Source of the DNA: Siphonodentalium dalli | Taxonomy: Eukaryota; Mollusca; Scaphopoda; Gadilida; Siphonodentaliidae | Length of the DNA stretch: 64,000 bases | Assembly (NCBI GenBank): GCA_032622095.1 | Contig: CP136064.1 | Span: 176,158,247-176,222,246, forward strand | Direction of reading: 5' to 3' | Part shown: positions 4,052 through 57,819 of the stretch, in pieces | How positions within the stretch are numbered: position 1 is the stretch's first letter | Layout of the letters: the number at the start of each line of letters is the position of its first letter | Translations under genes and position numbers: made by a program | Notes under the pieces: model-generated | Databases searched by the model: none | What the model saw: the letters and a program-made list of their open reading frames with translations, nothing else | Told to the model about the DNA's origin: nothing

Positions 4052-4140
4052 AACCGGCGTGCAATTTCTAACACATTTTCAAGTGACTAAGCGAGTGACT
4101 TGATCATTTTAATTCAGTCATTTATGGAGTGTGTATCATG

Positions 4141-4356
4141 TACAGTAATGCCCTAAATAATCGACTCCTTAACCACAGCAGAATTATGGGTAATTTTTCA
4201 GGATTTAGTCGGAAATATGGCTTGTTGCCATTCATTGGAAAGCTCTCGGGGGAGCTTTCCGATGAATGGCAACAAGCCATATTTCCGACTAAATCCTGAA
4301 AAATTACCCATAATTCTGCTGTGGTTAAGGAGTCGATTATTTAGAGCATTACTGTA
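4141..4356. mobile_element. Family A palindromic transposon, full length
   Basis: 216 bp that folds along its whole length. The two ~107 bp arms differ at only about three positions, and the turn is at GCTCTCGGGGGAGC. It starts TACAGTAATGCCCTAA and ends in GAGCATTACTGTA. Ends in CAGT with flanking TA fit a Tc1/mariner/pogo-type non-autonomous element. Confidence 0.8.
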
Positions 4357-6907: not shown

Positions 6908-7128
6908 TATACAGTAATGCTGTAAATAATCGACTCCTTAACCACAGCAGAATTATGGGTAATTTTTCAGGATTTAGTCAGAAATATGGCTTGTTGCCAT
7001 TGATCGGAAAGCTCTCACTGAGCGCTCTCCGATGAATGGCAACAAGCCATATTTCCGACTAAATCCTGATAAATTACCCATAATTCTGCTGTGGTTAAGG
7101 AGTCGATTATTTACAGCATTACTGTATA
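6908..7128. mobile_element. Family A palindromic transposon, full length
   Basis: TATACAGTAATGCTGTAAAT to ATTTACAGCATTACTGTATA. The arms are near identical; the turn is at CTCTCACTGAGCGCTCT. The terminal CCC is replaced by CTG on both arms, so the two arms share the variant. Confidence 0.8.
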
Positions 7129-14118: not shown

Positions 14119-14303
14119 CCATCACATTCTATCAAATTGTGGACTTGTTGGTTCGAAAGTATTATTTTTTATCGAGCAACACTGAATTTACAGTGATATA
14201 TTGTTATGACATTTTCTTTCCTGAAAACAGATTGAACACAGATGATATTGCTAACCTGAAACTGAGATTTGAGATAGGAGACTAAATTCTTAATACAGTT
14301 ATA

Positions 14304-14520
14304 TACAGTAATGCTCAAAATAATCGACTCCTTAACCACAGCAGAATTATGGGTAATTATTCAGGATTTAGTCGGAAATATGGCTTGTTGCCATTCATCG
14401 GAAAGCTCTCAGCAAGAGCTTTCCGATGAATGGCAACAAGCCATATTTCCGACTAAATCCTGAAAAATTACCCATAATTCTGCTGTGGTTAAGGAGTCGA
14501 TTATTTAGAGCATTACTGTA
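14304..14520. mobile_element. Family A palindromic transposon, full length
   Basis: TACAGTAATGCTCAAAATAA to TTTAGAGCATTACTGTA. Full arms and a CTCTCAGCAAGAGC turn. Confidence 0.8.
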
Positions 14521-15037
14521 GTTGATAAGAAATCGGCAATTTTGGTATGAAAATTGATAAATCAGTGCAAACAGGTTTGCTTTAGATCATTGAAGGTAAG
14601 CAACAATAATAGTGAATCAGCAAATTCTTAGTTGAAAGAGATGTTGGTAACATCTTTCATATTGTTTGAGACAGTTACATTTACGAAGTTAGTGATATTT
14701 AAATGGCCTTTTGTTTCCAATAATTTGCCACAACATGCATACATTGCATGCCTATGTAAGCACCATTGCTGCGAAGGTAGTGCTCAATTAAAGTAACAGA
14801 ACCGTTATGAGGGTATAAAACTCATTTAAAAGACTCATGTGAAGAACAGGTTAGTTCTTAGTAACCCTGTGTCACTAAAATACTTATAGGCACCATGCCC
14901 TAGACACTGGATTCAATACTTCCAAGAGGTTGCCATTTCCTCTTGCAGTAGATGAGGAATGTTACATCGTTATTGAATTGGTACTAATCCACTCTGTTAT
15001 AGACTGCTCACTCCCTTTGTGTCTGTGGGTGGGTGAC
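14521..15037. other. Spacer between two family A palindromes
   Basis: No supported feature. Confidence 0.45.
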
Positions 15038-15254
15038 TACAGTAATGCCTGAAGTATATGACCCTTTAACCACAGCAGAATTATGGGATTTTTTTCAGGA
15101 TTTAGTCAGAAATATGGCTTGTTGCCATTCATTGGAAAGCTCTCACCGAGAGCTTTCCGATGAATGGCAGCAAGCCATATTTTCGACAAAATCCTGAAAA
15201 CTTTCCCATAATTCTGCTGTGGTTTAGGGGTCAATTATTTAGGACATTACTGTA
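15038..15254. mobile_element. Family A palindromic transposon, full length, more diverged
   Basis: TACAGTAATGCCTGAAGTAT to TTTAGGACATTACTGTA. The arms carry more mismatches than the 4141 and 14304 copies, so this is probably an older insertion. Confidence 0.75.
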
Positions 15255-17135
15255 CTTTCCCAGTCTGATTGAGTCTGGGGTAGTTTATACCTTTTTTCCC
15301 CCCGAAACTTTACTTAAGAGTGATGTCTACTGACCTATACTGAATGGGAATTATCATTACTTTGCATAAAATATAACAGGATAGTGCTGTTATGACAATA
15401 GGAAAGTAAGCAAACCTTCTAAATCATCTTGCTTCAGTGCAAGACACATTTTAGAAGGATTTTTTTTAATAGAATTTTTTAATTCACAATTGGTTTTTAG
15501 ACAAATTTCTTGAAGTCTGATTTATATTTCCAACTCATTATCTGGATTGTGTTCAATCACATTAATTTAAATTGATCAGCTGGATCAATTCTGAGTTAAA
15601 TCTAACTGAAGATGGGTGCAGCATGGAATCATATCTTTATGTCTTTTGAACAGAGTGACATGATTGGCTTGAAAGGAAAACATGGAAGGCTTTGGAGAGA
15701 GAAAAAACATTGATATACTTAATATATTCCTATAAATTGAATTTTATAACAAAATGTTTTTATTCTTCCATTCTAAAAACAAATCACAAGCAACATAAAT
15801 ATGGGACTAATTATCAAAATCTTTTAATTTAAAATAAATTTTTAGAAATAGATTCTATCTAACTGTATGGTCTGTTTGTGAATGGTAGTTATCCTTTCAA
15901 TCTTATCATGTCGTCTGTTTTGCTGTAACTATTATGCTAAATCTTGATGCATCTTCAATTGAAAGCTTACTTATTGAAACTGATGGCTTACAAGAGAAGT
16001 CAGTCATGTTTTCAAATAATAATCATTGAAACCCTCCTTGTTTTTGAAATTACAAATTTTATCATGTTAAATATTAATAATAATTTTAATATAAATTCCC
16101 CAGTAATTTGGCTGTTATAATAGAGTATTTCATCTATTTATTTTGTGTTATTCTTTAGCATTTTATTCATAATAATGTCTTGATGTGATTGTCCATTAGC
16201 TGTTACTTGGTTAAACTTTTATTTAAGCTTGAAATTAAAGGTTTCTCATTCTAATTTTGTGTTTCTCTATTATCCATGAAAGAGGGATAAAAATTATGTT
16301 CATTTACCTTCATTCTATATTCCCGGGTACAAGAATGCTATCATCAGGGAAATTCAAAATATTAAAGATGCACAATCCAAATCAATGTTCCTAAATTAAT
16401 AATTCTTTGGCTTCGGGGGTAAACAAATATGTGATTCGAGGAACCACCCATCAAAGCTCAGAGTGATCAGATAACGATTTTTGAAATTTTTTATTTCTCA
16501 AAATGTGTACAATATTTGTGGCCCAGAATAAAGTCGTCACACCGAAGGTCTCGGATGAAGATGCAGATGAAGATGGATAACTCTAAAAAAAGTGGTATTA
16601 CATGTACAGTAATATTTCATTGAACAACATGTTGATAAATAACATGTTTTGGGAAATTTTATACCATAGTTGACCGCGGTTAGCAATATTTTGTTGTAAT
16701 AAACTAAATCTGATAACTAAAGCATATTTTGAAGAAATGTTGTAACTTGATGATATGGGGACCTTCTGATCGGATTGAGTATCTTTAAATAGCCTCAGAA
16801 AAAAGTATTTATCCACATTGTTTACATCATAATTGGTCTTTCATAGGATCTGATGGAAGGGTAGAAATAATGGCACAGATGAGACATAGCAAAACATGCT
16901 TTGATCATTATTATGCAGTTCCATGTGTTGGTCATCGACCCGCTATCCCATTTTCAATTCCACGAGCAATATTGTCTAATACAAAGGGTCCTAGTTTTAT
17001 TATTCGAATTAAACTAGTTTGTCATTCTTTGATCTAGTCTGGTAGATGGGTGGGTGACCTAGAATAAATTAGTAACAAGGCGGTTTTGGTATCATTCTGT
17101 GCGGTTTTGCCGTCATTCTCTGCCCGAGAGACAGA
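15255..17135. other. AT-rich spacer, nothing recognised
   Basis: GGCGGTTTTGGTATCATTC near 17080 resembles text at about 62450 (GCGGTTTTGGTGTCATTC), a trace of the dispersed repeat family. Otherwise featureless. Confidence 0.4.
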
Positions 17136-25116: not shown

Positions 25117-28100
25117 GTAATGTTTAACTCCGTGGTTGCATTAATCGGGGCGCACATGCAGCGATATTTGTCGTTGTTGTTGTTGTTGGCATCATAATCA
25201 TCTGTAGCTGATTAATGTCACTGGTGCATTAACTGCTGGTGCTGTATTCACTAGGTGCTATACTCTGTATGTGTGACGTCTTCTATCTGGTAAGGGAGAG
25301 TTATATACATATATAAAATCATTGTTTAGACACTGATGCCTGAAGATCTGACAAAGTTGTGAACAAGTTTATGTCGAAGAAGTTCTGTATCTGCTGACAG
25401 TCCTTCGCATTGCCCGAGGAGAAGTTTTATTGTTTTGCCGCTGTCATTTATAGAATCCTGGAGTTGCGGACTTTCAGTGAGATCAGAAAACAGTATGTCC
25501 CTGTACCCTTGGTTTAAGCTGCAGTTGAGAATGTAGTGTAGTATAGTTCCTTGTTCACCACAAGAGCATTTCGGTGTGGCTACAAGATTCATTTTGAACA
25601 TATGCTCATTTAGGAGAGTGTGACCTAACTTGAGTCGGTTAACTTTCACCTCCGTGGCTCTGTCAGAGAATGAGAATTTGGTAGGCTTCATACCAGTTAT
25701 TGGAAACAATTCTTGAGTGTGCTGTGAAGTTTTACAAAGGTCCCACGAGGTTTGCCACTTACATTTAACAGAGTCCTTTATTGCATTTTTATGTTCTTTG
25801 AAAGAGTTCAGATTAGAGTGATCTGTGAAAGAAGCTTGCGGGACAGTAGAAGCTGCTTCTTTTGCTGCAATGTCTGCCAAATCATTACCCGTAATGTTAG
25901 TATGACCTCTCATCCATTTCAGAATAACCCTGGATCCCGTTTCATTAAAAATATCATTTATTAGAGAGTTACATGCACGAGTGTGATCTATGTGACCTTT
26001 ATAATAGTCTCGATTGTATATTGTCTGTAACGCACTTTTTGAGTCACTGATAACAATGGTTGCTACAGATAGCTTTTTTGTTTTGACAAACGATTTGGCA
26101 TATATTAGACCCAGTCTTAGTCCATAAAGTTCAGCATTGAGACTGTCATCAGAAGATTGAACAGGTTCACTTATGATAACCGGATCGCTGAGTAGGCCAC
26201 TAGTGTATATAACGGCAGCAGAACCACTGTGTCCATTATTTAGCACTGATCCGTCCGTAAAAATAATCAGGTCTTTTCCACCTGTGCTCTGTAGGAATTT
26301 ACAGTTATCATTACTTTCGATGTCTAGAGATGCTGCTTGAGATGTATTACTAGAGTTTGGTAAAGTTTCAGGAGTTGAGTAGATGGCGTAAGTGCAGAAA
26401 TCGTCACTTTCAGGGAGATATATTGGTTCTTTTTCTATAGAGCCGAGTTTGTTACCCAACAGATATTTTCCAAAGGAATAGAGTTTTGCCATGGGAGTGT
26501 CGCGGATTTCGCCCACAGAAAAACTGTTGATTATTGTGGAAATTTGTGTCAAAAACCATGAAAAAAATATTTACACCTCTATATATGTAATCTATAGTTT
26601 ATAGTATAGAGTTTCATATATTTCGTTGTTTTTGGCACAAATTTCCAACAACTTATTTCGGCACTGGCATGGGAAGTTGTACAGTCAGTCAGGGTATAGC
26701 TGATCATCGTGTATACGGGTCCCACTAAATACCAAGCAATACCAAGCAATACCAAGCAGTAGACAAATAATGAAAGTATAAGGTCGTAGTAGGTCATATA
26801 AGGTTATATGGACATGTTAATGGTTGTTTTAGTGAATATTATATGTATATTCTATCTATAAACCGCTAACAACTAATCCGACCGATATTAGCGTTTGATA
26901 ATTGCTGCTTGGTATATAGCGTAAATACCAAGCAGTAAGTCGACTGGCTGTAAAATCCAATTAGACACAATATCTCGTAAACACTAAACTCCCATCAGCT
27001 TTTATCCGGGCTTTGGACCGGCAGACATGGTCTGGCAGCTTTAAAGTTTTTTTGTGTCTAGAGCCTAGACATTGCACTTTTGTTGAGTGCTCATTTGTTT
27101 TTTATATGACACAACGTGCCCCTATGGTTTTGGTTTATAGTGCTTGTGATTTAGTTTTCACTCATGTTAGCACTCGAGCTCTTATCAGTCGAGACTCGGC
27201 ACAATTACCCCATTGAAGGGGAGTGTGTGTCTTTTGGCTAAGTACGTACGGTACTAATAGCATGTTATGTACAGTGTACTTATGCCACTTTCTGGCGTTT
27301 GTTTGATATTGTTCTTGTTTTTGAGGTTTTAACTCTCTTTTTCTGGCCTGGTTTTTTGGCTATTGCGGCTGTCTTGGGTATAGTCAACCGTCCGTCCGTC
27401 GAAGTTTGTATTGATGAACTGTCAAAAACGAAGTTTAACAGTCGGCGCAAACGTCGGTCACGTTGGTCTGTTGTCAAATTTACCCAAGTCTCATGGCGAA
27501 CACAAAGTGACTTTGCAGTGGGTGCAAGCATGAAGCTGCCAGCACCATACAAAGCACTTCTAACATCTCTGTGCTGGTCCATCACTATGTCTTGTAGTCT
27601 GTCAGTCAAGTCTGGTAACTTTAATACTTTCCATTCGTTCTCTAATTTTATTATGTTATTGAGACTCTCACAGTTGTTATTTGTCCAATGTTTAGGTATG
27701 ACTGTCTTGCATTTTTGTCTTGGTTCAAATACCTTTGTTTTCAATTTTGGCAACAAAGTTTCGGTCAAATACTTAATTTTATACACGTCCGAGATGTCAT
27801 TTTGTTGTTCGGTGTAATCGTCGCTGTCGTCAATCGTCAATAAACCGTTGTCTTTGGAAAATAGTCTTGTCATTACTTCATTAACTCGCTCTTTGCTTTC
27901 TTTTTTGCACATTTTAAACATAGCATTTTTTTTTAAATGAAGTGTGCATAAAGTATGTGTGGCAAATGTAAAAAAAAGGCCGTTGATCGCGTCATATCTT
28001 GAAGAGACCCGTCCATGTGAATGCGATTTTGTTTTATGCGCAAAAAATAATTTATTTACACAAAGTAATTGTTACTGGATCAGATGACACATCCCATAAA

Positions 28101-31100
28101 TGAAGTTAGCCATGTCGAGAATTATAGTTTCTATGTTGTTGTCAAGTTCGGCGGGTGAGTTAATTGGCTCACCACCCAGAAGCAGGGCTAACAGAGACAT
28201 ATCATCTCTAGAATCTATGTACTGAAAGGTCGAGAGACCAACCTCATCAAGAATGTGTTCCCAAAACGAATTCCGAAGGGCAAGTGAATTGGCTGCTGTA
28301 CAGTAACGAAGGGCGTGTAATATGTCATTCTGTATCCCGTTACCACAAGCGCGACACGTGCGATCATTAGAAAATGTAGTTCTGTTGAGCAGTAGAGCGA
28401 GATTTTTCAGAGCTTGCGACGCGCCAGGGTGCCTTTTCAGCAATGTCCAAATACTCCAAAATGACAGTGGATCATTGTGCACAATGCGAAACAAATCAAG
28501 TGATGTATCTCGGTCCACTGTAGTTTTCCATTGTATAACATAGTGTGACTGTACTGTTGATTTGCAGAGGTGCTTCCATGCTGATTTAGAAGGAAATTCG
28601 CCAGTCGCAACGAAAGTATCCAGATGCGCGTGCAGATTGTATTGCCGAAGTAACTGTGTAATGTCGGACACAAACCCTGTTGTCGCACGTCCGAAGAGGC
28701 TCAGCAAGAAGAATTTATATAAGAAAATTCGCAGTGGTTCCTGGTGCCCATCGGGAAGGTAAATTAGATCAGCGAGGAATGAATGTTTCGAGTGGCATAA
28801 GACCTAACAGGCTCATTGAAATAACAGTAGGAGTCCGAGTTGGGAGAGATTGTATATGCTTAACACACGAGCGATAAGCTTTCTCCATGCAGTAAACATT
28901 GGAATCTGTAGAGGTTGTCAGAATTTCACACCCATAGAGACATTTCGGCAGAACAATAGTTTTTAAAAGAGAGGTCATCGTGGGCGGAGTGCATTGTTTC
29001 GTGATATTTCTACCAGCAATTGCGAAGAATGTTTTTCTAAGCTTATCGGAAATATCAGAGGCCCTGGTATTACTGTTCTTGAACTTGCACTGTCTTATCC
29101 CTAAATGCACACAGTCTGTCGTCTCATGGAGCGTTTGGTCTCCGATAGACCAAGTTCTGTTGCTGCGCTCGTGTTGACGCCCCGACTCGTTGAATACAAC
29201 AACAAAACTTTTTGTGTTCGAGAACATAAATCGCCAATTCCGAGCATATGAATTGCATATATCGATGAGATTATCTAGACCAGCTTTTGATGTAGAAATC
29301 AAGGCGATATCGTCAGCAGTTGTTGGAGCAGTGCAGTTAACATGACCGACTAACAATCCTTCGTTCGTTGAACTGAGACGCGCTAGCAACTCGTTGATAA
29401 ATACAAGGTAGAAAAAAGGGGAAGTCACTTCCCCTTGTCTTGTTCCTTGCAGAATATCCACTGGTTTTGATAATGTGCCATTATACATCACTCGACTCGT
29501 GCAGTTATAGTGCATGTTGGAGACAATGCGTAGAATTTTGCCTTTAAAGCCGAGTTCATTGAGTTTCACCAAGAGGCCTTGATGCCAGACTCGGTCAAAA
29601 GCTTTCTGACTATCAAGAAAGCACACATATGCACGAGAGTTCATGTCAGCGGCGTAGCTTATTGACTCCTGCAGAATAAATGATGTCATCACACAGCTAA
29701 CGTTTTTCTGAAATCCGTGTTGAAGTGCGTTAGGGAAATCATCAAGACACTTATCACCTAGAAATCTGTTTAGGAGGATGCTCTCGAATGTTTTGTATAT
29801 CACCGGCAAAAGAGTTATTGCTCTGTAGCTATCCGGGATATGCTTGGGCTTCGGTGAACCTTTATATAAGGGAACGATTATTCCAATTTTTAGTGCTGGT
29901 GGTATCCACTCTAACGCCAAGATACCATTGAAAAGACGAAGGAGCAATGTCGAGAGCAGTTCACTTCCATGAACTAGATGTTCGTTAACCACATGATCGA
30001 TGCCACCAGACTTTTTCCGATGTGACCGGACCTCGATATGCACTGGACACACAAATAGCCCAAGGAAGATTTTCCGAAAAAATTGAATTCCTTACTTTTT
30101 AAATTCTCACACGGAAGGTGGAACCACTTGTCGCAGAGATCGCAGGCGATGCTTTTTATCTCGTGACATTCGTCACCACAAACTCCACACGGGTAACACG
30201 GTTTTGAAGACATACTGAACGTTTGAATATAATCAAATCGATGATAAGACTGAGGAAACTAGATCTCGTACTCCATTTATATATTTTTTTGACACTCATT
30301 ACTACTCTAAAGTGTCGTTTCATTAACCACTGCTTACTGTAATACCACAGGGAAACCAACTAATATCCCGTAAATACCACAGCGAAAGCCGACGACTCAG
30401 GTGTCTTATAATTATAAACTGCTTACTTTAATAACACAGCGAAGCCATCAGGCATCACACAATGGAGTAGAGCGACATTGTGATTAATTGGATTTTATCA
30501 CTGGCGCTGTATATACGCTATATACCAAGCACTAATTTACCAAGCAGTAATTACTGGCCGCTACCGTTTTGGCGTTTAATAAGTCGAAAATAGATAAAAA
30601 TATTAACTAAAACAACCATTAACATGTCCATATAACCTTATATGACCTTCTACAACCTTTTAATTTCCTTATTTGTTTACTGCTTGGTATTGCTTGGTAT
30701 TGCTTGGTATATAGTGGGACCGCGTGTATACAGTATAGCGGATCAGAAAGATGATGTTTCCGCAATAAAATCTCATTATTATTAATATTAATAAAAGTTG
30801 TGGCCATTCTTTTGTTGTAGTTTTATGAAGATACTTATTAAAATTTACCGTACAAAGTTACATTCGAATTGTACGTCGGCAACTTAATTTTTTAACATTT
30901 TCACGAAGCTGACTGAAAAATTCCGAAACGAAATTCGGCGAGTCGGGTCGTGAATATTTTTTTTATGAAAAAATTAAATGAAGTTGTGGATCAGCTACGC
31001 TAGTGGTAAGACTTTTATTTTGTTGTTCCATCATAATAATTCATGCTATAACAATTTCATTTTGATTGGTATACGTATTTCCCTTCATCTTGAACGTGTC

Positions 31101-34100
31101 CATTTGTTTTGCCTGCATGATCGAGTCATTAATAGCGGATCGCACATGCGCAGTAACCAGTAAAGTTAAAACGAAACTATTTTTAGAAAATGTAAACAAC
31201 TGGCATGCTCGTTTTCTGTGGGGTTTTCTGTTACTAAGTACATTAAAAGCTAGAGTTATTGTGCAAAAATATCTTCAAACTAGCTTGTTACAATACATCT
31301 TGTGCTAACAAGGTGTAAAAGTGAGATAGGAAGTGTAAAATTATTCATTGAAGCAAGTGATCCGCTACTGACAAAAGTGGTCCGCTACTGACCAATTTAC
31401 GCCTGTCAAACGATCTAATTTTCCGAAATAAAGGAGGACTTGGTAAAAATAATTCTACTTCCAAAGGAAGCAGTGTATACATGTCTATAAATATCAATGA
31501 AAAAATCCAGGAAATTCCTTTTAGTTGCAGAGAAATACGGGAAAAATTAAAAAGTGATTCGCTATACCCAGACTGACTGTAGTCCAACAAATTAGACGAT
31601 TCGGATTAAGACCTATTTTAATATTTGGACATTTATGTGGCCTTAATCCCTCATCGTCCAACCATGGGCGTGAAAAATTTGAACGCTACGAAGCCGCAAG
31701 ATTTATGTGGCAAGGGCATGCCCCTTTAACTTACACCACAGTCCTAGGAATCACTGTCCATGTAATATTAAATTTGATTAAAATATAACAAATAGATCTA
31801 GATATATTACCTCTACTGTACAGATATAAGTACAGTTAGGCAACATCAGATTTTGTTATTATGTAAACCATCATCTCATTGGCTGAAGACCACCCCCTGT
31901 GCTCTATCACTAAAACGAACAATTGGATTTTTCGTTAGAAACAAATGCATTTATCTCCCCACAATTGGCATGTGACAATTAAGTTAATTGTTCTTAATGC
32001 GCTCGTTGGGTCATATCAACTCTACCTGGTCTGAGTTGTACATAAATCGTGATTTTCCATCCAAATATCAGCATAAATTCACATTTATTGAATTGTTGAA
32101 AATCATTTTTAATGACGCACAGCAACTTCCGGTAGTGTCTCTCTTCAGTTCCTTATTACAATTACTTATTTAAAATTTGCAGCCAATCCCAGTACAAGTT
32201 ATCTCCCATTGCCTCTCTTGGGATGCGGAACTAACCGGGAGCTTGGGAATATAAAATTTGCTTTTACATCTCAAGGTATCAACCACCCCTAGGGCCCTAC
32301 TTGAAAATATATAGATATATTAGTTTGAGATGGTCATTTCTACATTTCTCTAGTAATGAGAATGAGTTAAAATGTGCACTTAGTAGTGTACAGCAGAGCC
32401 AGTTTTACCACACCCGACGTCTGTTTACTCACATCCGTAATCCCTTTTATTCGGATTATCACCGGGTGCGAATAAGTAAAATGGTATTTATAGAATGGAT
32501 ATGTTTTTCCAAAATCGTAAAGAATTCCACCGAGTTTGCACCTGAAGGAATATTCGAGTAACTAACAGCTATTTTCTTGTAAGTGGGTAAAGATACTAAC
32601 AATCTGAATACACCATTGTTTCAAGAAAAAAATACGGAATATTATGATATAAACTCAGAATTCGCGAATGTTTGTGTGGCATAAAAATTTGTACTCTGTA
32701 ATTTCTTGCAAATCATCTGCCAATGAAAATGCAGTATACAAACTTTTTACTTTCCAAACTGTTCTTTATATAACTACTAGCAGGTTAGCCCGCCACTGGC
32801 GTGCTTGGTCAGAAACATGACAATGTTTTATGTTTTGTTTGTGTTTTTCAATGAGATAATATTGGGTTTTTCAATATTTTACCCGATTTGACCTTGAATT
32901 GATCATTTTCAAGGTCAAGGTCATGTCGGGGTCACAATATATAATTTGTGGGTACCCGTTTGAAGGTTAAGACTGACCCGATGAAAAATTCCCCCGTTCC
33001 TAGGAACGACAGACATAAGAATGTTTCACACAATGCGACGTCGACGATCCCCGTGTGTTTTTACACTTATATACGAAGTTTGAGCTCACCTAGGGCGGAA
33101 AAACTTACCCGATCCGCGTTCTTAGGAACACAACACGCTCCGCGTTCTTAGGAACACAACACGCTCATGTCTATACACGCCCAGACCCAGAAGAGGTATG
33201 ATTTTTTTTAACCTGCCCGTGGCCATTGAGCAGCCCCTGACAGAGGTTGTCCACCCTTACGAGATGGTCAATAGTCCTCGCAAAGTTAATCCCGTCGTGA
33301 ACCCCATCCTCGCAAAGTGCGGACAGTCAATTAATCCCGTCGTGAACCCCAATAACCAACGCGACGTAATTTTGTTTGGTATCATGTGTTGCGTTCTAAA
33401 AATTGGAAAGCACTTGTTCCCGTATATCTCTCTGCATAATAAATTTCGAGCGATAACGTTGCGTTTGCGTAAATACGAAATTGTGAGTGTTGGTTTGTAA
33501 CCAGGATTTCTGAGAAGCATTATGCCTATATCCACACTAACTACCCCCCCCCCCCCCCCCCCTAAGCCCTGACCTAAGTGGCATACATACTATAACAATG
33601 ATGTTGTAAGAGTACTATGTCATCCAATAAATCTCCCCGCATAGGAAACCACTCAATGTTCCCGTATATCTCTCTGCAGATGCTAATAACGTTGAATGGT
33701 AAACAGACGCACTTTATAGCGATGCGTCAAAAACAAACGCTCATTAAATTATCACTTGATTCACCACCGCAGTGCCGTTTTTTGTGACTGAGATTGGAGA
33801 ACGGGTGCTGTGAGCTTCTCCAAAACGCGACCACGGCGGTGTCCGTGGGATTTTACACTTATATACGAAATTTGAGCTCGATGGGTGCAGTCGTTTTCGA
33901 TTCTATAAAGTACACACATATATATATACGGAAGTCTCAAAATATATAGTATAGCCGATGAGCCCGACGTTGTCCGGGCTATTCATCCGGGCTATTCAAA
34001 AACCAAATTTCAAGTCGTTAGCTCCACCCGTTTCCGAGATCTGGTCTGCGCATGCGCGAAGCTGGCGTCGCACGGGCTCGGCGACCCGATAAAATTCGTA

Positions 34101-37100
34101 TCCGGGGCAAGATACGTTCACATACCAAATTTCAAGTCGATAGCTCCACCTGTTCCCGAGATCTCGTCTGCGCATGCGCGAAGCTGGCGTCGCACGAGAT
34201 CGGCGACCCGATAAAATTCGTATCCGGGGCAAGATACATTCACATACCAAATTTCAAGTCGATAGCTCCATCCGTTTCCGAGATCTCGTCTGCGCATGCG
34301 CTGCACGGGCGTCGCACAGGCTCGCCAATACGACAACGTCCACCGCCTGGTCAAACTACACACACGTACCAAGTTTTGTCCCGATCGGTCGAGAATCTTA
34401 GATTTGTATTAATGACAAACATACAGACAAACATACAGACAGACAGACAAACAGACAGAGGTCTTCAAAATATATATGAGACTAGCCGATGAGCCCGACG
34501 TTGTCTGGGCTATTCAAAAACCAAATTTCAAGTCGATAGCTCTACCCAGCCCGAAATTTCAAGTCGATAGCTCTACCCGTTTCCGAGATCTGGTCTGCGC
34601 GAACCTGGCGTCGCACGGGCTCGGCGACCCGATAAAATTCGTATCCGGGGCAAGATACATTCACATACCAAATTTCAAGTCGATAGCTCCACCCGTTTCC
34701 GAGATCTCGTCTGCGCATGCGCGAAGCTGGTGTCGCACGGGCTTGGCGACCCGATAAAATTTGTATCTGGGGCAAGATACATTCACATAGCAAATTTCAA
34801 GTCGATAGCTCCACCCGTTTCCGAGATCTCGTCTGCGTATGCGCGAAGCGGGCGCCGCACGGGCTCGCCAATACGACAACGTCCACCGCCTGGTCAAACT
34901 ACACACACGTACCAAGTTTCGTCCCGATCGGTCGAGAATCGTAGATTTGTATAAATGACAGACAGACAGACAGACAAACAGACAGAGGTCTTCAAAATAT
35001 ATTATAGATAGATAATAACTAAATATAAAATATTGATTTAATATTATTAAATAATATTTTATTCAACTAACAGTGATTCCTAGGGACTGTGCTTACACTG
35101 TTCACGTCCAATGACACAAATAAAACCATAAATAAAAAACACTTACCTGTTGTTGGAATGTTTAGTATCATGACTGAACTAACTAGAATATTTTTTGTCA
35201 CTATTAATCCATTAAAATTTGATCAGAATACACACGTCAGAAATATCAACATCGTCTGCGTGAGCGACTACGCGCCGTATTGAGATTACGCGCATGCGTA
35301 AAGGATCAGAAATCATGGATTTTTTTTAGGCCACACCAAACTTATTTCGCAGTTTCATTGTTCCAGATCACGTAGGAGCAGGCTGATTTTTATAGACATT
35401 ATGGGATCTATATCCTTATAATTTTTCGGAGTGAATGATTTTTGTTCACATCTATATATTAAGTATATATGTAATAAGCGCTAGATAAAAAACGCTAACT
35501 GGCTGTCAAGCCACATACAGTACAAAGACGCAAGGAAAGCTATAGTGGATGGGTGTCAAGTAGGCCTTCAGTTTCAACAATTGGAAAGTATATGCCTAAC
35601 ATGTTGAATTTGTTTTGATATGCGAGTATTACTGTGGTCATATATTTAATGTGAAATTTGTAGTGATAAATCGAGATATATATAAACACATATATATATA
35701 TATAGCATCGTCGTCGAAAATTGCTAGAAGTTTCATAGCAGACATCTAAATGCGATTTTGGGCGCAATTTATTACCGGATGGGAATATATTCGCTGCCAC
35801 GTGGTCTTGTATTTTATACATATAAAAACGAGCTTCGCTTTGATAATTGAGAATGACACAGCTACGAAAATGCATATATGTGTACAAGTTCAATTATTCT
35901 ATATAATTTGTAGCCGCCACACAGATGTGATATTTGTAAGCTCTGTGTGCGCACAGGTACGATTTTAGTCGAGCGACTGAATGTGATTGGCTACTTCCAA
36001 TAAATAGTACGACTCGATCGTAGAAAATCAAAATTATTCGATTCTTTGCGAGGCCAATCGTGCGACAAAATGTCCTGCGATTTTCCACCGCACACGCTAC
36101 GATTTTACCTATATTTAGCCTATAATATAGGCGTAACCGGTGCCCGATATTTGTTGTACGATATATATCGCATCGTACTCGTGTGCGGCGCGCTTAAGGC
36201 ATGTTTAGGTTTTCCGTATCAATAATAATATTATATGTCGGCCGGTCTATTGTCAATTGTGTAATTTCCAATTTAACACAGTCAGGCAACTATTTTCGGT
36301 ACAGGCAACAGTCAGGCAACTATTTTCGGTACAATATACGTTTAAACACGTACACATATTCGCCGTATTAATGACCATATAATCTTTTAAACATATAATA
36401 GGATGACCATACTTACCATTACTACTGTAGAAAACATTAACACAACTGTTTATTTGAACGTTGATTTACCGTTTTCTCATTTTACTGGAAAAAGCGGTAA
36501 TAATCGATAACCATCGGAACGGCAGGATTTTTTTCTCGATGTCGATTATAAACAGGCAAACGAAAATATAGTCGAAGTGCCGTTTCAGTTAATCTGTTTA
36601 TCACTAGAAATGTGTTGGTTTTATGACAAAATATCGAACATAGACCTATATAATCCGGCTTTTGGTGACAATTTGGTCATAGTTTTCGACTTGTGAACAT
36701 TTCATGGGGCAGGTGGTCGTTGAATTCATCGATTACAACTGATTTACTTACACGAAAATCCACAGGAATACGAATATAATCCACATAAGTGACTAATAAT
36801 AATAACTATTACCCATGCATATCTTACTCTCGTCGAATCTTGACATACCGGGAAGCTTGAAAGACCAAGCATCAGGTTAACCGGTTAATCAATTTGAATT
36901 TCAAAACTAATAAAATAATTTCCATATCCCTTCAAATATTGTTTACTTAATTAAGAAAAGGCATCTTTATTTTTGGTACAAAAATATCAATGGTATAATT
37001 TTGATAAGAACACTTATATGATGAAAATGTCAACAAAACCGGACGAACAGACCCTTATTATTGTTATTTATCAAACAAACAACATTTGGCACTAATGTGC

Positions 37101-40100
37101 TATCTATAAATGCCAACAATTTGATCCAGTTGATATTTCCATATCTGCACGGCATATATTGATTTTCACGAGTAATCAATTTGTGTGGCCTTTATTATCG
37201 TCTGTATTTGAAAATGGTGATATGTTTTCGACTCCGAGATTAAACTAACAAATCTGTAATTCTGACAACGTTTATATCACAATCTATGTTTGAACATAAA
37301 AGAATACTATCTCCGCTACAGGTAAGACTCATGTATTTGTAGAAAATTTCAGATAGAATGGTATTTTGAAGGGGTTATATCGGTGTTCACTGGTGTTGAC
37401 CTGTTTCAAAATTCGTGCTAACTTGGCTTTCAGCTCTTTTATTAGACTAGAAGGGTTAAGATAATCGTAAATGTCCAAATATGAAAATATATCTTAACCC
37501 GAATAGTCTAATTTGTTGGACTAGGGAAGTTGGTACCGGTAGCCGAGACAGCCCTCACAATAGTTGGTGGACCCAACTAATCAAACAGACTTACAGAGCT
37601 AGACGCTCTCGATTAGTTGGGAAGTTGGATCTTCAATCACTACCCCCATGGGCTTTTCCATTATTATGAATGTTTCCCCCACATATAACATGCAAATATA
37701 GCAACATAAGTTACATAACAAACTTTTTTGTATTTGAGATTTTGTTGAAATATTTTGGGTATTGTAGTAATTTAGAACATAAACATAACCATTTGATTGA
37801 GTTTCATTAAATTGAATTGGTCTAAGTTAGAAAAATTGACTTTGAAAACATTTCAGTTTTAAGACATGAGAAATTCATATTTCGAGAAATGCTCCAATGT
37901 CGAACCTATGACATAGAACACACCAGGATTCACTCAGTTAGGTAATATTGTGTCCTTGTCTTACTTAAGGTTATATTCTGTTGAAATATGATGGAATTGA
38001 TTGAATTAATTGTCAGCAATGAATGTGCCATGAGCGGCAAGTGGCGGACAACATGAAAAAAAGGAAGAAAATTGCAACATTTTGCCAGAATGTATATATA
38101 TCTGGAAAGCAGCCTATAGAATGACACAGCATGCTGCAGCTAAGTTATGTGAATGACAATCCGGCTCACTTTATCGAATGTCCTTGATTTGATCTTGCTA
38201 ATATTGCCTTTCACTTTTCCAAGAATGTGAAGTTCAAAATGTATAACTTGCCTCTCCCTTATAATTACGGTAACTAAAAACTGTGTCCTCCTGAGCACCA
38301 TATATTGGAAATAAATGGGCATTGGGCTTGTTATTATGTTATCCTGATAGCATTCAGTCATACACTGTATGATAGTCCAGTGAGTGCAACCAACTTATTT
38401 TCTATAATATGTACTGTCACCACAGGCCTTCTAAACAGTGATTGAGATCTTAATAAATATAAATATAATGCATCTATTCTCCATCACTTTGTACAAGAAG
38501 TCCATTTATAGTAAGGTAAGTGGGCGGTATCTGGAGAAGTCAGCCCCCCACGGAGTCGGGCCCAAACGAAGACGTCCCTACGCGAAGTCGGCCCCATTAA
38601 TTAGAAGGGATTAAATCGGCTTAATTTTATTGAGGTAATTTTTATGTTGGCTAATTGTGAGGTCCTCAATTTTTGCAAAAATATATAATATGATATCACT
38701 CAATTATGGAATGTGTTCCGTTTAGCATGAGTACAGTATCAAATAAATGCATGATGAAGACTTTTAATTTAAAGGTAGACTCAGTTTACTATAGACCCTG
38801 CCTGACCAAGACTCAGAGCCCCATAAATGTTTGTGTTATAGCGACTGATGGTTCACTAAAGACCCACCCCTGTGCTCTACCACAACTGTTTAGAATGCCT
38901 GTCACTACAATACTTTACACATCACAGCTTTCAATGAGATTACATATATTATACATCCGAGCCTTGAAATAGTGTCTGTCATTTGCAGAATGAGGTCCCC
39001 AGAGGGCAAATTTAGTGATGCTAACCAGCATAGCGTGTTAGCATCACCAAATTCACCCTCTGGGGACCTCATTCTGCAAATGACAGGCACACGATTTCAA
39101 GGCTTGAATGCACACAGTATAATATATATAAACCACTTTTACTTATGTTATACATACAGTTTATATTCACATAATGTTATACTATTTTGTGTAAAATTAC
39201 ACTTTCAACGTGTTTATTGCTGCTAACAAAATAAAATATAATCTAACACCTGTAGCGATCAGCTGTTTTGACCAGGTACTTAGACCTGTGTGAAACTGAA
39301 ACTGATATAACGGTAATCACAACAATTGATAAGTTGTGTCGGAGACAATGGGAACAAGGCCATGGGACTCAGAATATACGTATTCAATGTTTAGCTTCAC
39401 CTACCACAAAATAAACAAGTGAAATATATTCTTATTATAGCTTTTGATTCGTAAAAAGCGTTCCGTTCGCGAAAACGACGTGCTTCAATGCTTCAGATCT
39501 CGATCTAAAGCGGAAGTGAGAACTATTCAGTGAAACGAACCCTTGCCATATTCGTTTGTCTATTTATAGCCACTATAAAATTTGGTTCGCCATTTACTTT
39601 TACCAGGTATTCTAGCGCGTGGCCGATGAGAGCGCAGCAGGTAAATCATTTTTTTTTTTCTGTCTCAAACATTACTTTTTATCCACGTGAACTTCGTTTA
39701 AACCCAATTACTGTGTCCGCCTAATTTTCGAAAAATTCTTTTATCATGTTCTAATTGATCCCGGTTATTTATTTGAGCACTAAATGATAGCTTATTTATT
39801 CGGATTTCGTTTTAGCGCGAAAACCAAAAAGATCTATCAAGATCAAGTGTCATGTGATTCCATAGATTGCAACACCCCACTCCGGTTCCTTGGTCGGGTC
39901 GCCTTTTTAGCTCAACTTTACTTTGTAAAGTTTGAGCTATTGCCATGGCTTTGTCGTCCGTCGTCTGTGTGTGCGTGTACGTAAGGCGTCAACAATGCAG
40001 TCTACAGGTCGTACCTTTGGTCGGATCATTATGAAATTTGTCATAGCTGTTGACATCAACATTTAGACCAGAATGATTAATTTTGGGGTCATTCGGTAAA

Positions 40101-43100
40101 AAAACATGGCCGCCAGTGGCCATCTTGCATTTCAAAATTCAATCCATTAGCACGGGCTACAGGGCGTACTGTTTGTCTGATCGTCATGAAATTTGTCATG
40201 GATGTTAATATTGACATGTAGATGGGAACGAGTAATTTTGGGGTCATTCGGCCAAAAAACATGGTCGCCAGCAGCCATCTTGGATTTTACTCTTTGTATG
40301 ACTAAATCCTTTAGCACGGGCTACAGGTCCTACTTTTAGTCTGATCATCATAAAATTTGTCAAGAATGTTAATAATCACATGTAGATGGGAACGAGTCAT
40401 TTTGGGGTCATTCGGCCGAAAAACATGGCCGCCAGCAGCCAACTTGGATTTTACTCTTTGTATGACTAAATCCTTTAGCACGGGCTACAGGTCGTACCTT
40501 TAGTCTGATCATCATAAAATTTGTCATGGCTATTGATATTGGAATGTAGATGGGAACGAGTCATTTTGGGGTCATTCGGACAAAAAACATGGCCGCCAGC
40601 GGCCATCTTGGATTTCAAAATTTAATCCATTAGCACGGGCCACAGGTCGTACTCTTTGTCTGATCATCATGAAATTTGTCATGGATGTTAATGTTGACAT
40701 GTAGATGGGAACGAGTAATTTTGGGGTTATTTGGCCAAAAAACATGGCAGCCATCTTGGATTTTACTCTTTGTATGACTAAATTCTTTAGCACGGGCTGC
40801 AGGTCGTACCTTTAGTCTGATCGTCATAAAATTTTTCATGGATGTTAACGATGACATGTAGATGGGAACGACTCATTTTGGGGTCATTCGGCCGAAAACA
40901 TGGCCGCCAGCAGCCATCTTGGATTTTACTTTTCTCTTCATGTCTATAAACTAGTATTAGACATTCAACTTTCCACATTCCTAATCGCTCCATAGACTGT
41001 AATACATTAAATTATTCCCTTTCCAAGTTGAGCTACAGTGTCATTGACACTTTCATTTTTAATACCGGAAGTCAGCTTATGAGCGACTTCTCGGGGGAGG
41101 TAATGTGGCTAGCAAATACAAACATTGCATATCAATTTTGTTGAAGACTAATCTGTTCTGAGTCAGTATCCACAAGCTACCCGACGAATAAAAATCAAAA
41201 TGTGACATTTGTAGCTGTTTAAAAAATACGTGGTAGACGGCTTGCCGAGGCGCTACTTCGGGAAAAATAGCCCCTCATTTCAATCACCAAATTCACTTGT
41301 AACTAGATGGTTTTGTCTGCTACCATTTAGTAATAAGGTCAATCGATAGTGACATATCACGAAGTCATTGTGCACAATACCTGGCTCTCGAAATATAATC
41401 CGAACTTTGAGAGAAATCCGAGACCGTTAATTTGTCAACATTTAAAACTTGATATGGAGTAAATTGACGGAACGGAAAAGCGGAACGAACTTAAACTATA
41501 TATATATATATTGTTGTCTCCAAACTCACTCATCGTGGTATCCATTGTTGTTATATGTGCTTTTAGTTTTAAATATATTTGAATCGAAAAAAAAAAACTC
41601 GTAACAAACAAGAACATGTTATAGCCGGAATCCAATTATGTTCGTTTATGTTCGTTCCGTCTCCGATTCCCGTTTCCTATTTTCACGGCTTTTTGCAAAT
41701 ACATAATGGCTGAAAGTTCGAAGCGGTAGAAATACGCTCTCGATTTATGTGAAGAATGACACGACTGACATCTGAATCATGCATTGAATTTGTCACCACA
41801 CTAGAAATGTACTAGAAGCTCTGATCTACAAGTATGTGGCAGTTTTGGTTGTTAAATAATATTTTTAGTGTGTGTTATCGCTGGTGAAAAGTCGAGTAAA
41901 TGTCCATACCAATGATTGGTGACGGAGTACTGATTTCAATGATATACCGACTGGACTTTTATAGAGCTATGCTCTGATAATAAAAGTCAGGTTTACGGAC
42001 TACCCTCACAATTGGCTACAGCATTTAGCAATCACTGATTGACTGAATCAGCAATGGTGAAGCAATTTGCTGAAGCAAACTTGGCCACCGGCAAAGGGTT
42101 GCCATAGTCAGGGACATATCCAGGCCGTTTTTCATACCGTTTACCGGTTTGGGCACCCAAACTCTAGGCACCCAAAATTTGTTTTTTTTAAATTTGGTCC
42201 CAATTCATATCATAACAAGATGCAAATTATTTATATATTTATACATATTGACATAAGACATTTAAGTTTACAAAAATGTTTAAGTTTAACAGTTGGAATC
42301 ATAATGTAAAAGTATGTTTGGCTTAATCTAGCTTTCATCTGTGAAAACTTCAAATAGTTTGTTATCATTCAGCCTTCAGACTTCAGTATTTCAATCAAAA
42401 ACAGTACAGGAACAGTGACAATTTGATCAAATAAACCTAGTTATCAGGTGGGATCTCATAACACCAAATGAAAAATTAACATAGAGATTAGTACTAATAG
42501 TAATTACCAACTTAATAGACATTGTTTCTGTACTAGTATATTATGTATGTTTCTCTCACTTGAATTTTAGAAAATAGCCTATTATATGAATTAAGAGTGA
42601 TAATGGTAAGTCTCATTTCAAGCAGGATAAGCATAATCCATTGAACCAAAAGATATCTGACAATAACTTATAAGCATTTCAAATCCTTGTGCTTTCTCGT
42701 TTGTTCTTGATCCATACATGTACATATCTAAAAAGTTCTAAAGTTATGGTTGAGAAACTTGATCAAATTGACCTCTCAGTAAAATTCAAAATACTGACTC
42801 AAAGAACCCTAGATTAGCTCTCAATGCAATGGATTTTCAAAAACATTCCAGGAGGAAGAACGTTTCCCCACCATCAGCAGGGGGTCACCCTCCCAACAGA
42901 CATTCAGGATATGCCTTCCGAATATCATTGCCCAAAACAGGTGTCTCCAAAAAATCCCTGGATTTTTCACTGCATAGTGGATTGCAAATAGCCAAACAAT
43001 CTGAATTAAGAGGGCTGCTGAGAGGTAGCAAACTGATCTCTAGCGGACTGGTGATCGCAACCTGTTGTTACCTGCAGGCCAGGGTATTTTGACAAAAATC

Positions 43101-50299: not shown

Positions 50300-53200
50300 A
50301 TTTCAGGCGACTATAGAAATGAGCTGCATCCGTTATAGAAATGAGCTGGACCGTTATTGAAATGTGCTGTGCCCGTTTGTCTGGCAATTTTTCTGTCCGT
50401 TTGTCCGAAACTGTACGGATCAAGTTTTCATTATGTACATGAGTAATATGCATAACAAATAAAAGTATAATGAATGTAAATATGAGCAGGGAATACATTT
50501 ATATGAATCATAATATAAACTTTTATGTCAAAATTGCAGAGATTCTCAAGGTTGAAGTTCCTGGTTCCTATGAGAAGGAAATATGGACTCTGAATGAAAA
50601 GGAAATGACTGAGAAAATTCCTACTTTGAAGGAGCGAGGCAACAAGTTCTTTTCTGAGAAGGATTATTCTCAGGCTGCAGAGCTCTACTCCCAGGCTCTC
50701 GGTATCCTGGAGCAGCTTTCAATGAGGTTGGTTCATAAAAGATCAATTCTTTGATCTTCTTTCAAGGGGCCCCCTTCATAGACTCAGTCGGTAATCTTGC
50801 ATAAACATTAACCCTTTCAACACTCTCTCCCTGCACAGAGTATATATATATATATGTTAGTAATGTTGTAAATGCATTATCTACCTGAAACTTCACGTGT
50901 ATGTTCCTGGTATAGCTGTGATAATTATAAGATAGGTAAGTATCGTCAAGCGGTCACTGCTTAAATGTTGCTAGGCAACTATCCGGTATTCATATGAAAT
51001 GAAATCCAAGATGGCCACTGGCGGCCACGTTTTTTTGCCAAATGACCCCAAAATGACATTTTCCCATCTACATTTCAAGTCAACAGCCATGACAAATTCC
51101 ATAGTGATCCGATCAAAGGTATGACATGTACTAGTAGCCCATGCTAATAGAAAAGCTAGTTTCATACATCAATTTACTCATATTCCCAGTTTCTATCGTC
51201 CTCTATTTGTAAGTTCACAATCATACTATTATTAATCTTTCAGAGAGAAGCCACACGCCGAGGAGTGGGACAAGTTTGAGGATGATAAAGTTCCATTCTT
51301 GCTCAATCTATCTCAATGTCAGCTGTACGATAAAGATTTCTACAAAGTTATAGACCACACATCTAAGGTGCTCGAGCGTCATCCAGGTAAGTAGATAACA
51401 TGGTTCGCGATGGCCATTTTTCAAAAACTTAAAATATACCCCCCTCCCTGTAACAAAGTTATGGGGGTGAGGTATATATATATATATATTTAGGAATCAT
51501 CTTGTCCATCTGGCCGTCTGTCTGTCAACCCAACTTTGTCCGAGCTTGTATTCCAACATTTTTCAGTTAATTTTTGTAAATCTACCATATTTACCAGGTA
51601 AAACTAATTCTGACTTGTAACTACAAAATTGTACCTGCCAATGACAGGCAGACAGATATACATTTCAATCCCTAGCTGGAAGTTACAAGCCATATTTCCG
51701 ACTAAATCCTGAAAAGTTACCCATAATTCTGCTGTAGTTAAGAGTCGATTACTTAGGGCATTACTGTATCACAGTAAATCTCTTAGCTGATATGAAATTT
51801 TCTTGATTGAGTTTCTTGATTGAAATTTTCTTGATTGAGTTCTCCTTCTATGTATGCTCCAAACGTTTACGCTCGGATTTCTTTTCTAAAAATAGCCAAT
51901 AAAATTGTCCCGCGGAGTGTGATAAGAAATTCTAAATAAAATTTATATTAATTGACAGAAACTTTTCAGTATAATTTATACCCAGGAATCTAAATAAAAT
52001 TATACAATTACAATGTAATGTGGATGGGGTTGTTGTGAAATTAGTGGTCGAGCGGTCTGTGTAATAATTCTAGTGTCTGACGTAAAACATGATTTTTGAA
52101 TGTTCTTGGATCTCTATTGTGATGTTAACTAGTGATTTCTAGGACCCTTGATAAAGGTTCACAATCTGATTTAAACTTAGTACGTAAAATAGATACTAGC
52201 AGAGCTTGAAAATATACATTACACATTGGTCTGACCAATACTGGAATATGCCTTCCCTGTGTGGGATAACTGCCCTAATTATCTTAGTGATGACATTGAA
52301 AAGGTTCAGTACGAAATGGCCCGAATTGTAAAAGGTGCAACCATCAGTACGAGTAACACTCGTCTTTTATCAGAAACTGGCTGGGAACTCCTCTCCTCAT
52401 GTTGTAGAAAACACAAGCTATGTCAATTTTTTTAAATGATACGTGGAACTGCTCCCATCGATTTTAAGAAATTATTTACGACCAATCCAGGCAAATAATT
52501 CCAGATATAACTTCAGATTTGAACAGATAAGACTACTCTCGAATATGAACTATGACTATTATATGGATTCTTTCTTACCAGCTGCAATTACTGAATGGAA
52601 CAAACTGCCGGAAACTACAAAGGGCAGCAGTACAATCGAAGACTTCAAAAAGGAACTCAACAGTGACAATATACGTCCACCTGCATATTTTTATCATAGT
52701 AAATGCCGTAAATCTCATATCCTTCATACCCGGTTAAGACTGAACTGCAGCCACCTGAGTTGTGACCTGACAGACAATCATGTAAAAAAAATTCCCCTTC
52801 TGTTTATGTGGGGAACTTGAGACAACTTACCACTATCTCTTTGAATGTACATTTTATCAAGAGCCCAGAAGAGAACTATATGATTCTCTACCCAATGTTG
52901 TCCTATCTGAGAATACTCTATTGCGGGGATCAAGGGAGCTTAGCCTCTGCGAAAACAAACAAATATTTAATGCAGTACAGACATATATTATGAGAACAAA
53001 AAGATTCCCATGATTTGTAAGGGTAACAAATTGCTTTGGATTCTGGCCACGTTATGCGGCAGCAAGATATCCCCCAAAATATATGTAGCACTAAATGCCT
53101 TCCGGTAATGATTATTTTGTATATTACTTACTTGCTATTAGCCTGCATATACGTGAAATGATTCCACATGAAGGATGCTCCGAAATTTACAGTGAACACC

Positions 53201-57136: not shown

Positions 57137-57182
57137 AGCAGAAATATTATTATCATAACTTGTCATTCCTTCATCATATAGT

Positions 57183-57364
57183 TACAGTAATGCCCTAAAT
57201 AATCAACTGCTTAACCACAGCAGAATTATGGGTAATTTTTCAGGATTTAGTCGGAAATATGGCTTGTTGCCATTCATCGGAAAGCCATATTTCTGACAAA
57301 ATCCTGAAAAATTACCCATAATTCTGCTGTGGTTAAGGAGTCAATTATTTAGGGCATTACTGTA
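57183..57364. mobile_element. Family A palindrome lacking the central turn
   Basis: TACAGTAATGCCCTAAATAA to TTTAGGGCATTACTGTA. The region around the hairpin turn is deleted, joining CATCGGAAAG directly to CCATATTTCTGACAAA. Confidence 0.75.
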
Positions 57365-57819
57365 TATCTAAAACACTTACGGCATTTTGTCCTACACAAA
57401 CTCATTTTAAATTTTGTTTAGGACAATGTCCTTGACCGAACGCTTATTATCAGACTTGAACCTGTTGGCTCAAAATAAACCTGACTAAGGCATAGACATG
57501 TTTTATATGCAGAGTCTGAATATTTGCCATCAGATTCACTACAATAATTACATGTCCTACCTCTTTGTGTTGTAACATGCAGTATTTTTGACATATTAAC
57601 TTGCAATTCTCCAAAACTGCTCTCAACACTGGATCCACATAATTAGACCTATGTATTATGTACACAGTGGTTTTGTTCTTTTGTGTTACCAATGTACAAA
57701 TGATCCCCAGATTTATAAATTTGGGTTATTCTGTTGTCAAGATATCAAATGTCAGTTTGTCCAAGGTAATGGAAGGCATCTCCCACAGAAATAAATCAAC
57801 ATACTTTGAACTGCTGTAT
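57365..57819. other. Downstream flank of AIP, possible poly(A) signals
   Basis: No AATAAA lies in the first 500 bp after the AIP stop. Candidates are at 57474-57479 and near 57790, beyond two transposon insertions, so the true 3' end cannot be fixed from sequence. Confidence 0.3.

Follow-up and report, generated by a model that had tools for sequence, protein, structure and literature searches.

A locus in the window, the whole 64-kb stretch of DNA that was analyzed, resembles metazoan Mutator-like DNA transposons (MULEs) in its long terminal inverted repeats (TIRs), a flanking direct repeat and a stretch of Mutator/IS256-like transposase that carries C-x2-H, W and E. However, the transposase was represented there by a C-terminal fragment alone, and the direct repeat was an imperfect 13-bp one instead of the 8–11 bp target site duplication given for MULEs in the available part of PMC6446971. 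The groups MULE-Mollusca and Phantom in that part of the paper were leads only for a group assignment, and no TIRs are recorded for MULE-Mollusca in its table.

PHD-bearing LINEs of the CR1/L2 lineages (the single-ORF L2_4 and CR1_6 in the available text of PMC4120745) share with the locus a PHD finger of the MLL/Pygopus kind upstream of the reverse transcriptase (RT), a C-terminal knuckle, and a C-terminal region that gives no match to RNase H. The LINE part analyzed here differed in its two frame changes and in leaving no room for an endonuclease; the likeness is one of features. The available part of PMC11203168 makes no mention of a PHD finger.

Retrotransposons within coding MULEs, with the transposase gene broken as in our locus, are described for plants in the accessible sections of PMC3903597. 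Nested insertions were found in 191 of 530 candidate coding MULEs of maize and in 195 of 476 of rice, and 107 of these 195 were highly similar to each other. Such insertions are common in plant coding MULEs, and this was counted in favor of nesting. Those in maize involved mostly LTR retrotransposons, whereas here the retrotransposon is a LINE and the N-terminal half of the MULE is missing. In animal Pack-TIRs (PMC8277862, in the excerpt available), foreign DNA between two TIRs also replaces the transposase interior, but the cargo here is another transposon and is known from a single copy. The locus most likely represents ordinary nesting, that is, a dead MULE with a decayed and shortened LINE inside it.

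Terminal repeats and transposase fragment

The inverted termini and an outer direct repeat bracketed PHD-finger, RT and Mutator/IS256-like transposase sequences, all of which were placed on the minus strand by sequence and profile searches. The outer features and the transposase were as follows:

26694–26706, plus strand: left copy of the flanking direct repeat, GTATAGCTGATCA, a putative target site duplication of 13 bp
26707–26974, plus strand: left TIR, from alignment, with 10-bp internal repeats AATACCAAGC
27283–28020, minus strand: C-terminal fragment of a Mutator/IS256-like transposase, from profile matches and motifs, the start at 28020 being a guess
30474–30732, minus strand: right TIR, from alignment
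30733–30745, plus strand: right copy of the direct repeat, GTATAGCGGATCA, with 1 mismatch

The TIRs showed 79.2% identity over an alignment of 269 (26709–26974 with 30731–30474), and a stretch of 123 bp was 93% identical (26718–26840 with 30599–30721). The local alignment score was 269, compared with a maximum of 33 among 300 single-base shuffles, and the length of about 260 bp agrees with the long TIRs of MULEs. The direct repeat was identical at 12 of 13 positions (26694–26706 and 30733–30745), and when 2985 pairs of 30-bp stretches were drawn at random from the window at distances of 3.2–4.8 kb, a single pair showed an equal run. With one mismatch, the putative duplication exceeded the MULE range, the exact edge of the TIR being uncertain. 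Both the inverted termini of about 270 bp and the near-perfect 13-bp repeat of the original prediction were recovered.

The transposase ORF was open from 28071, and its family matches began at 27975 and 27972. The best match was Transposase_mut in one library (E 0.0038; 16.6 bits vs. a cut-off of 21; profile positions 244–350 of 379) and the IS256 family in the second (E 0.0017; 17.4 bits vs. a cut-off of 150; 206–311 of 338), and both covered the same stretch near the C-terminus. These scores lie below the curated cut-offs, and by sequence the fragment is called Mutator/IS256-like. C-x2-H (27948–27937), W (27687–27685) and E (27669–27667) were present, with residue roles taken from the available part of PMC5225508; W and E were separated by 6 residues, compared with 18 in Muta1. 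The first catalytic Asp was not found in the fragment, and the second was not recognized at the expected place. No solved structure matched the fragment up to E 1, and its predicted structure was unusable (mean pLDDT 36.7). The TIRs and this fragment would belong to one MULE.

At least 170–210 residues or so were missing from the transposase N-terminus, as estimated from bacterial family profiles. Only 260 bp separated the right terminus from the PHD start codon, which ruled out a whole N-terminus at that position. A short piece of it may lie there; the Pfam scan covered the longest minus-strand ORF of the interval (67 aa, 30156–30359) and gave no match up to E 1. Two features were noted in this interval:

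30284–30473, minus strand: 190-bp stretch from the right terminus to the PHD region, with imperfect repeats of 52 nt at a spacing of 89
30248–30283, minus strand: possible core promoter, TATATAAA (from 30283) with an initiator-like TCAGTC (30253–30248)

The 190-bp stretch could be LINE 5′ UTR or MULE subterminal DNA. Compared with the reversed left TIR, positions 30252–30470 scored 30, which was reached by 0 of 300 simple shuffles (best 28); the other three comparisons with the TIRs did not exceed chance, their scores being equaled in 193, 285, and 132 of the 300 shuffles. The TATA/initiator pattern, which was defined from the site itself, occurred at 4 distinct places on both strands of the window, this one included.

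PHD finger and reverse transcriptase

The coding parts assigned to the LINE were as follows:

30040–30213, minus strand: PHD finger, from a profile match, with a start codon at 30213
28772–30025, minus strand: LINE RT, with RVT_1 and LINE-1 ORF2 matches, FLDSQKAFDRV from 29620 and ADD within TTADDIAL from 29323
28075–28803, minus strand: LINE C-terminal part, in a frame different from that of the RT, with CRACG from 28356

The RT was recognized by RVT_1 in a profile search (E 1.8e-25, match beginning at 29851) and by LINE-1 ORF2 (beginning at 30019). It matched 10 solved sequences, R2 and LINE-1 enzymes among them, as expected of a non-LTR RT. The C-x2-C...H...C pattern that includes CRACG is presumably a knuckle, and the C-terminal part had no relevant Pfam match. 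Two ORFs of different transposon classes on the same strand between the TIRs had been proposed, one of them a joint PHD/RT ORF. The domains and the strand were confirmed, but the transposase is a fragment, and the PHD/LINE part consists of three ORFs (PHD, 29977–30258; RT, 28772–30091; C-terminus, 28075–28803). The frame changed at both joins, from PHD to RT and, within 28772–28803, from RT to C-terminus, which ruled out a single PHD-RT ORF.

A neighboring LINE with RNase H was observed at 25329–26570 on the minus strand. Its continuation across the element was unsupported, and the ORFs rightward to 32500 were not RT-like by eye.

The PHD finger (E 1.3e-6) had MLL PHD3 and Pygopus 1 as its best solved matches, 2vpb and 3lqh among them. 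These two entries were top hits for LINE PHDs in the available part of PMC4120745, where single-ORF LINEs with an N-terminal PHD are also described. The finger ended about 20 nt before the LINE-1-like stretch and 189 bp before the RVT_1 match, so an endonuclease could not fit between the two domains; the apurinic-type endonuclease of PHD-bearing LINEs is absent from this decayed copy. Third-position GC of the finger was 0.517 (58 codons only). When 58-codon windows were taken, this value fell inside the 2.5–97.5 percentile range for the RT (0.34–0.55) and above those for the transposase (0.33–0.47) and the LINE C-terminus (0.36–0.50). Upstream of the RT, as in PHD-bearing LINEs, the finger probably belongs to the LINE.

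Another explanation is that the PHD exon was the MULE's own N-terminus, with a MULE TATA/initiator just inside the TIR. Only a 5′-truncated LINE, from RT to tail, would then be nested, and one deletion or truncation would have joined the two. This would be more economical, with one loss vs. two; because the MULE N-terminal half is missing, ownership by the LINE requires losses of both the MULE N-terminus and the LINE endonuclease part. The possible TATA/initiator pair lies between TIR and PHD, PHD fingers are listed for the MULE outgroup Rehavkus (PMC6446971, available part), and 5′ truncation is frequent among bivalve LINEs according to the accessible text of PMC10294476. However, the finger resembled the MLL/Pygopus kind reported in LINEs, in a comparison made with solved structures; its third-position GC was LINE-like over those few codons; and the table of PMC6446971 has no zinc finger for MULE-Mollusca. 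Ownership by the MULE is considered improbable, and the finger is treated below as part of the LINE.

LINE 3′ end and proposed order of events

The LINE and transposase parts were joined by one short feature:

28027–28074, minus strand: LINE stop, AATAAA and A-rich 11-mer ATAAAACAAAA, probably a short 3′ UTR with a worn tail

As had been proposed, the LINE ended in TAA (28074–28072) and the same frame was open into the transposase from 28071. A meaningful in-frame fusion of RT and transposase was ruled out, since the LINE stop intervenes and a shared frame has a one-in-three chance. The poly(A) junction, previously described as not obvious, was not wholly lacking: AATAAA (28056–28051) and the A-rich 11-mer (28037–28027) follow the stop and precede the transposase homology. 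With its stop, AATAAA and short A-rich run, the LINE 3′ end looks genuine, which favors insertion of the LINE into the MULE. No LINE target duplication was found between 27960–28085 and 30000–30480. The two stretches had no exact 8-mer in common (shuffle mean 1.27) and shared three 7-mers; allowing 1–3 mismatches revealed nothing longer.

The original prediction left two alternatives, a LINE inserted into a MULE or a TIR element that mobilized a LINE as cargo. The former is the better one and is favored here, but the missing N-terminal half of the MULE and the missing LINE target duplication mean that a further deletion must be assumed for simple nesting, or else capture by gap repair. In the scenario that we regard as fairly probable, a MULE with long inverted termini would have inserted at the locus and made the direct repeat. 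A PHD-bearing LINE would then have inserted in the middle of the transposase gene, in the same orientation, via target-primed reverse transcription, and its 3′ end would thereby adjoin the C-terminal transposase coding region. The endonuclease part of the LINE would have been absent already on arrival or lost afterwards, and the N-terminal half of the MULE would have been removed by deletion during or after the LINE insertion.

Capture by gap repair would involve a template switch to a LINE during repair of a break in the MULE, with two LINE pieces (the PHD, and the RT to the 3′ end) replacing the N-terminal half, as in the formation of Pack-TIRs, which are documented in animals (PMC8277862, available part). 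It would account jointly for the loss of half of the MULE, the lack of a LINE target duplication and the PHD-RT join without endonuclease. However, a random piece need not end at a LINE stop, AATAAA and A-rich run. We consider this capture unlikely and retain LINE insertion followed or accompanied by deletion.

Search for further copies and meaning of the locus

A composite TIR element multiplying with the LINE as cargo would agree with the single orientation of both parts between TIRs that a direct repeat brackets, and with coding stretches that are long and largely open. However, this claim gained no positive evidence. Both coding parts are defective, and a complete enzyme can no longer be produced from either the MULE or the LINE. 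No second copy of the element was found in the window. The other collections, in which the source genome is not known to be included and which are a weak test, yielded no real copy of the RT, transposase and LINE C-terminus proteins (viral contigs), no copy of the transposase (genome contigs, phages, and plasmids) and no further TIR from TIR words (genome and viral contigs). We regard such a composite element as very improbable.

Two matches in viral contigs were rejected as chance. One was a protein match of 28% over ~113 residues, with nearby ORFs that look unrelated by eye and an empty whole-record search; the other was a 20-base internal repeat word whose exact match reached 21 bases and was accompanied by no other TIR sequence.

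Least probable of all would be a family of TIR elements in which a PHD-RT segment derived from a LINE lies behind the MULE's own promoter and is multiplied with it, so that a DNA transposon both spreads and expresses a retrotransposon RT. As read here, the locus adds another decayed pair of nested transposons to a region rich in repeats, probably in an animal genome, and matters little. If it were true that several copies share the junction, the locus would represent a DNA transposon that carries a reverse transcriptase along as it spreads, and would bear on the exchange of parts between transposon classes.

Termini of the element and other repeats

The inverted termini of the original prediction were confirmed. 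They comprised a single ungapped pair of 123 bp (93%) and reached 79.2% across an alignment of 269, and the local alignment score was 269, compared with a maximum of 33 in 300 single-base shuffles. The termini were bracketed by a direct repeat:

26694–26706, left copy of the flanking direct repeat, GTATAGCTGATCA
30733–30745, right copy of the flanking direct repeat, GTATAGCGGATCA

An equal run was found in 1 of 2985 random pairs of 30-bp stretches lying 3.2–4.8 kb apart within the window. The two termini were the sole occurrences of the TIR word TCATATAAGGTTATATGGACAT in the window (≤3 mismatches), and the interior of the element had no further copy in the window self-comparison at E 1e-5. Among viral_contigs, genome_contigs, phages, and plasmids, collections in which copies of an animal transposon are unlikely, the scans gave no usable relative.

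On the left, the element was adjoined by a short inverted repeat (26537–26568 and 26616–26647; 32 nt, 84%, 47 nt spacing). A short way outside the left direct repeat lay the C-terminal part of a second LINE (25329–26570, minus strand) with RNase H (PF00075, E 5.3e-12), and no RT upstream of it was seen in the ORF list. The ORFs at 52440–53010 (plus strand) resembled a LINE C-terminus by eye and had no Pfam match. Tandem arrays of a 164-bp unit at 59516–61985 and 40002–40930 both showed a higher period of 319 bp, with one of 483 bp in the former only, and their best-matching parts were ~90% alike; this satellite presumably resembles those of bivalves. A 122-bp tandem repeat formed two arrays (33994–34324 and 34554–34867), each followed by a GACA run. 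The ~220-bp elements at 4134–4356, 6908–7128, 14301–14527, 15036–15257, and 57182–57367, with mutual matches of 73–96% in both orientations, were palindromic and MITE-like. Two coding stretches on the plus strand (50443–50751 and 56426–56659) had TPR matches below the curated cut-offs (best TPR_2, E 5.8e-6); they are perhaps exons of a single host gene, possibly AIP-like. The window contained no Rfam match at gathering scores and no tRNA gene (ARAGORN, bacterial code).

Transposase fragment

The top matches of the transposase fragment were Transposase_mut in Pfam (E 0.0038, profile 244–350 of 379) and the IS256 family in NCBIfam (E 0.0017, profile 206–311 of 338), both under the curated cut-offs. 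The runner-up matches, Vac14 (E 0.01) and MobP3 (E 0.036), indicated that chance level was close to these values. Three features were located in this stretch:

27948–27937, minus strand, C-x2-H
27687–27685, minus strand, W
27669–27667, minus strand, E

In Muta1, the corresponding conserved residues are H307, W401, and E419, with the second Asp at 283 (PMC5225508). By this spacing, the second Asp would be expected ~24 residues ahead of the H, at ~28011, near the LINE–transposase junction. That place was occupied by S-H-G-R (28020–28009), and the nearest Asp was six residues downstream (residue 27 of the open frame), so the second Asp may be shifted or mutated. The distance from H to W was 84 residues, compared with 94 in Muta1, and that from W to E was 6 instead of 18, a poor fit. 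The second Asp and E are 120–135 residues apart in 8 of 12 arthropod MULE families and 151–214 in the rest (PMC13359780). In the fragment, the E stood at position 135 of the open frame, and the 120–135 spacing would accordingly place the second Asp at the very edge of this frame. Ahead of the fragment, ~170–210 or more residues were absent, as estimated from two bacterial profiles. These residues could not be accommodated between the PHD start and the right terminus, an interval of 260 bp whose largest ORF on the minus strand, of 67 aa, had no Pfam match.

The LINE and the PHD finger

Read on the minus strand, the right terminus was followed by ~190 bp of unassigned sequence containing imperfect repeats and then by a motif pair:

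30283 and 30253–30248, minus strand, TATATAAA / TCAGTC pair, by motif pattern

This was one of four distinct places with such a pair when both strands of the window were counted, the pattern having been picked post hoc with the site already seen. The PHD finger was opened by an ATG at 30213 (match 30189–30040, minus strand, E 1.3e-6), and a LINE-1 ORF2-like stretch started at 30019, ~20 nt past the PHD and in a different frame. The RVT_1 match started at 29851 (E 1.8e-25). Among solved structures, the RT best matched 8gh6, a reverse-transcriptase-like protein, and proteins of R2 retrotransposons. The RT frame shifted within 28772–28803; the C-terminal part that continued from this shift carried a C/H knuckle and terminated at a TAA (28074–28072). 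AATAAA and an A-rich 11-mer came next, and then the transposase fragment, open without a stop down to 27283.

The best solved matches of the PHD were MLL PHD3 and Pygopus 1. PHDs of LINEs from the CR1 and L2 lineages reportedly match Pygopus and MLL PHD structures, with 2vpb, 3zpv, and 3lqh among the top hits (PMC4120745); the identities of these entries were taken from the solved-structure search made here. The third-position GC of the PHD (58 codons only) was inside the RT range, above the transposase range, and slightly above the LINE C-terminus. The other explanation is that the PHD was the MULE's own, which would require one loss fewer, and Rehavkus, the outgroup of MULEs, bears a PHD (PMC6446971). 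On a comparison that covered solved structures and published LINE PHDs, we favour the LINE as the probable owner of the PHD.

Probable nesting of the LINE in the MULE

In target-primed reverse transcription, an inserted LINE retains its true 3′ end, and the stop, AATAAA, and A-rich run agreed with such an end. No LINE target duplication was found (0 common 8-mers, compared with a mean of 1.27 in shuffles). This and the missing N-terminal half of the MULE transposase indicated that simple nesting is insufficient by itself. The added step might be a deletion, during LINE insertion or afterwards; alternatively, it might be gap-repair capture, as in Pack-TIR elements, which carry captured foreign DNA. 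For a LINE mobilised as cargo of a MULE, the other option of the original prediction, no report was found among the literature matches listed, a small search that leaves absence unproven. Nested insertions are frequent in candidate coding MULEs, with 191 of 530 in maize and 195 of 476 in rice, and 107 of the 195 in rice were highly similar to one another (PMC3903597). Both MULEs and LINEs are present in mollusc genomes (PMC10294476). The structure is real and of an ordinary kind: a decayed LINE within a decayed MULE.
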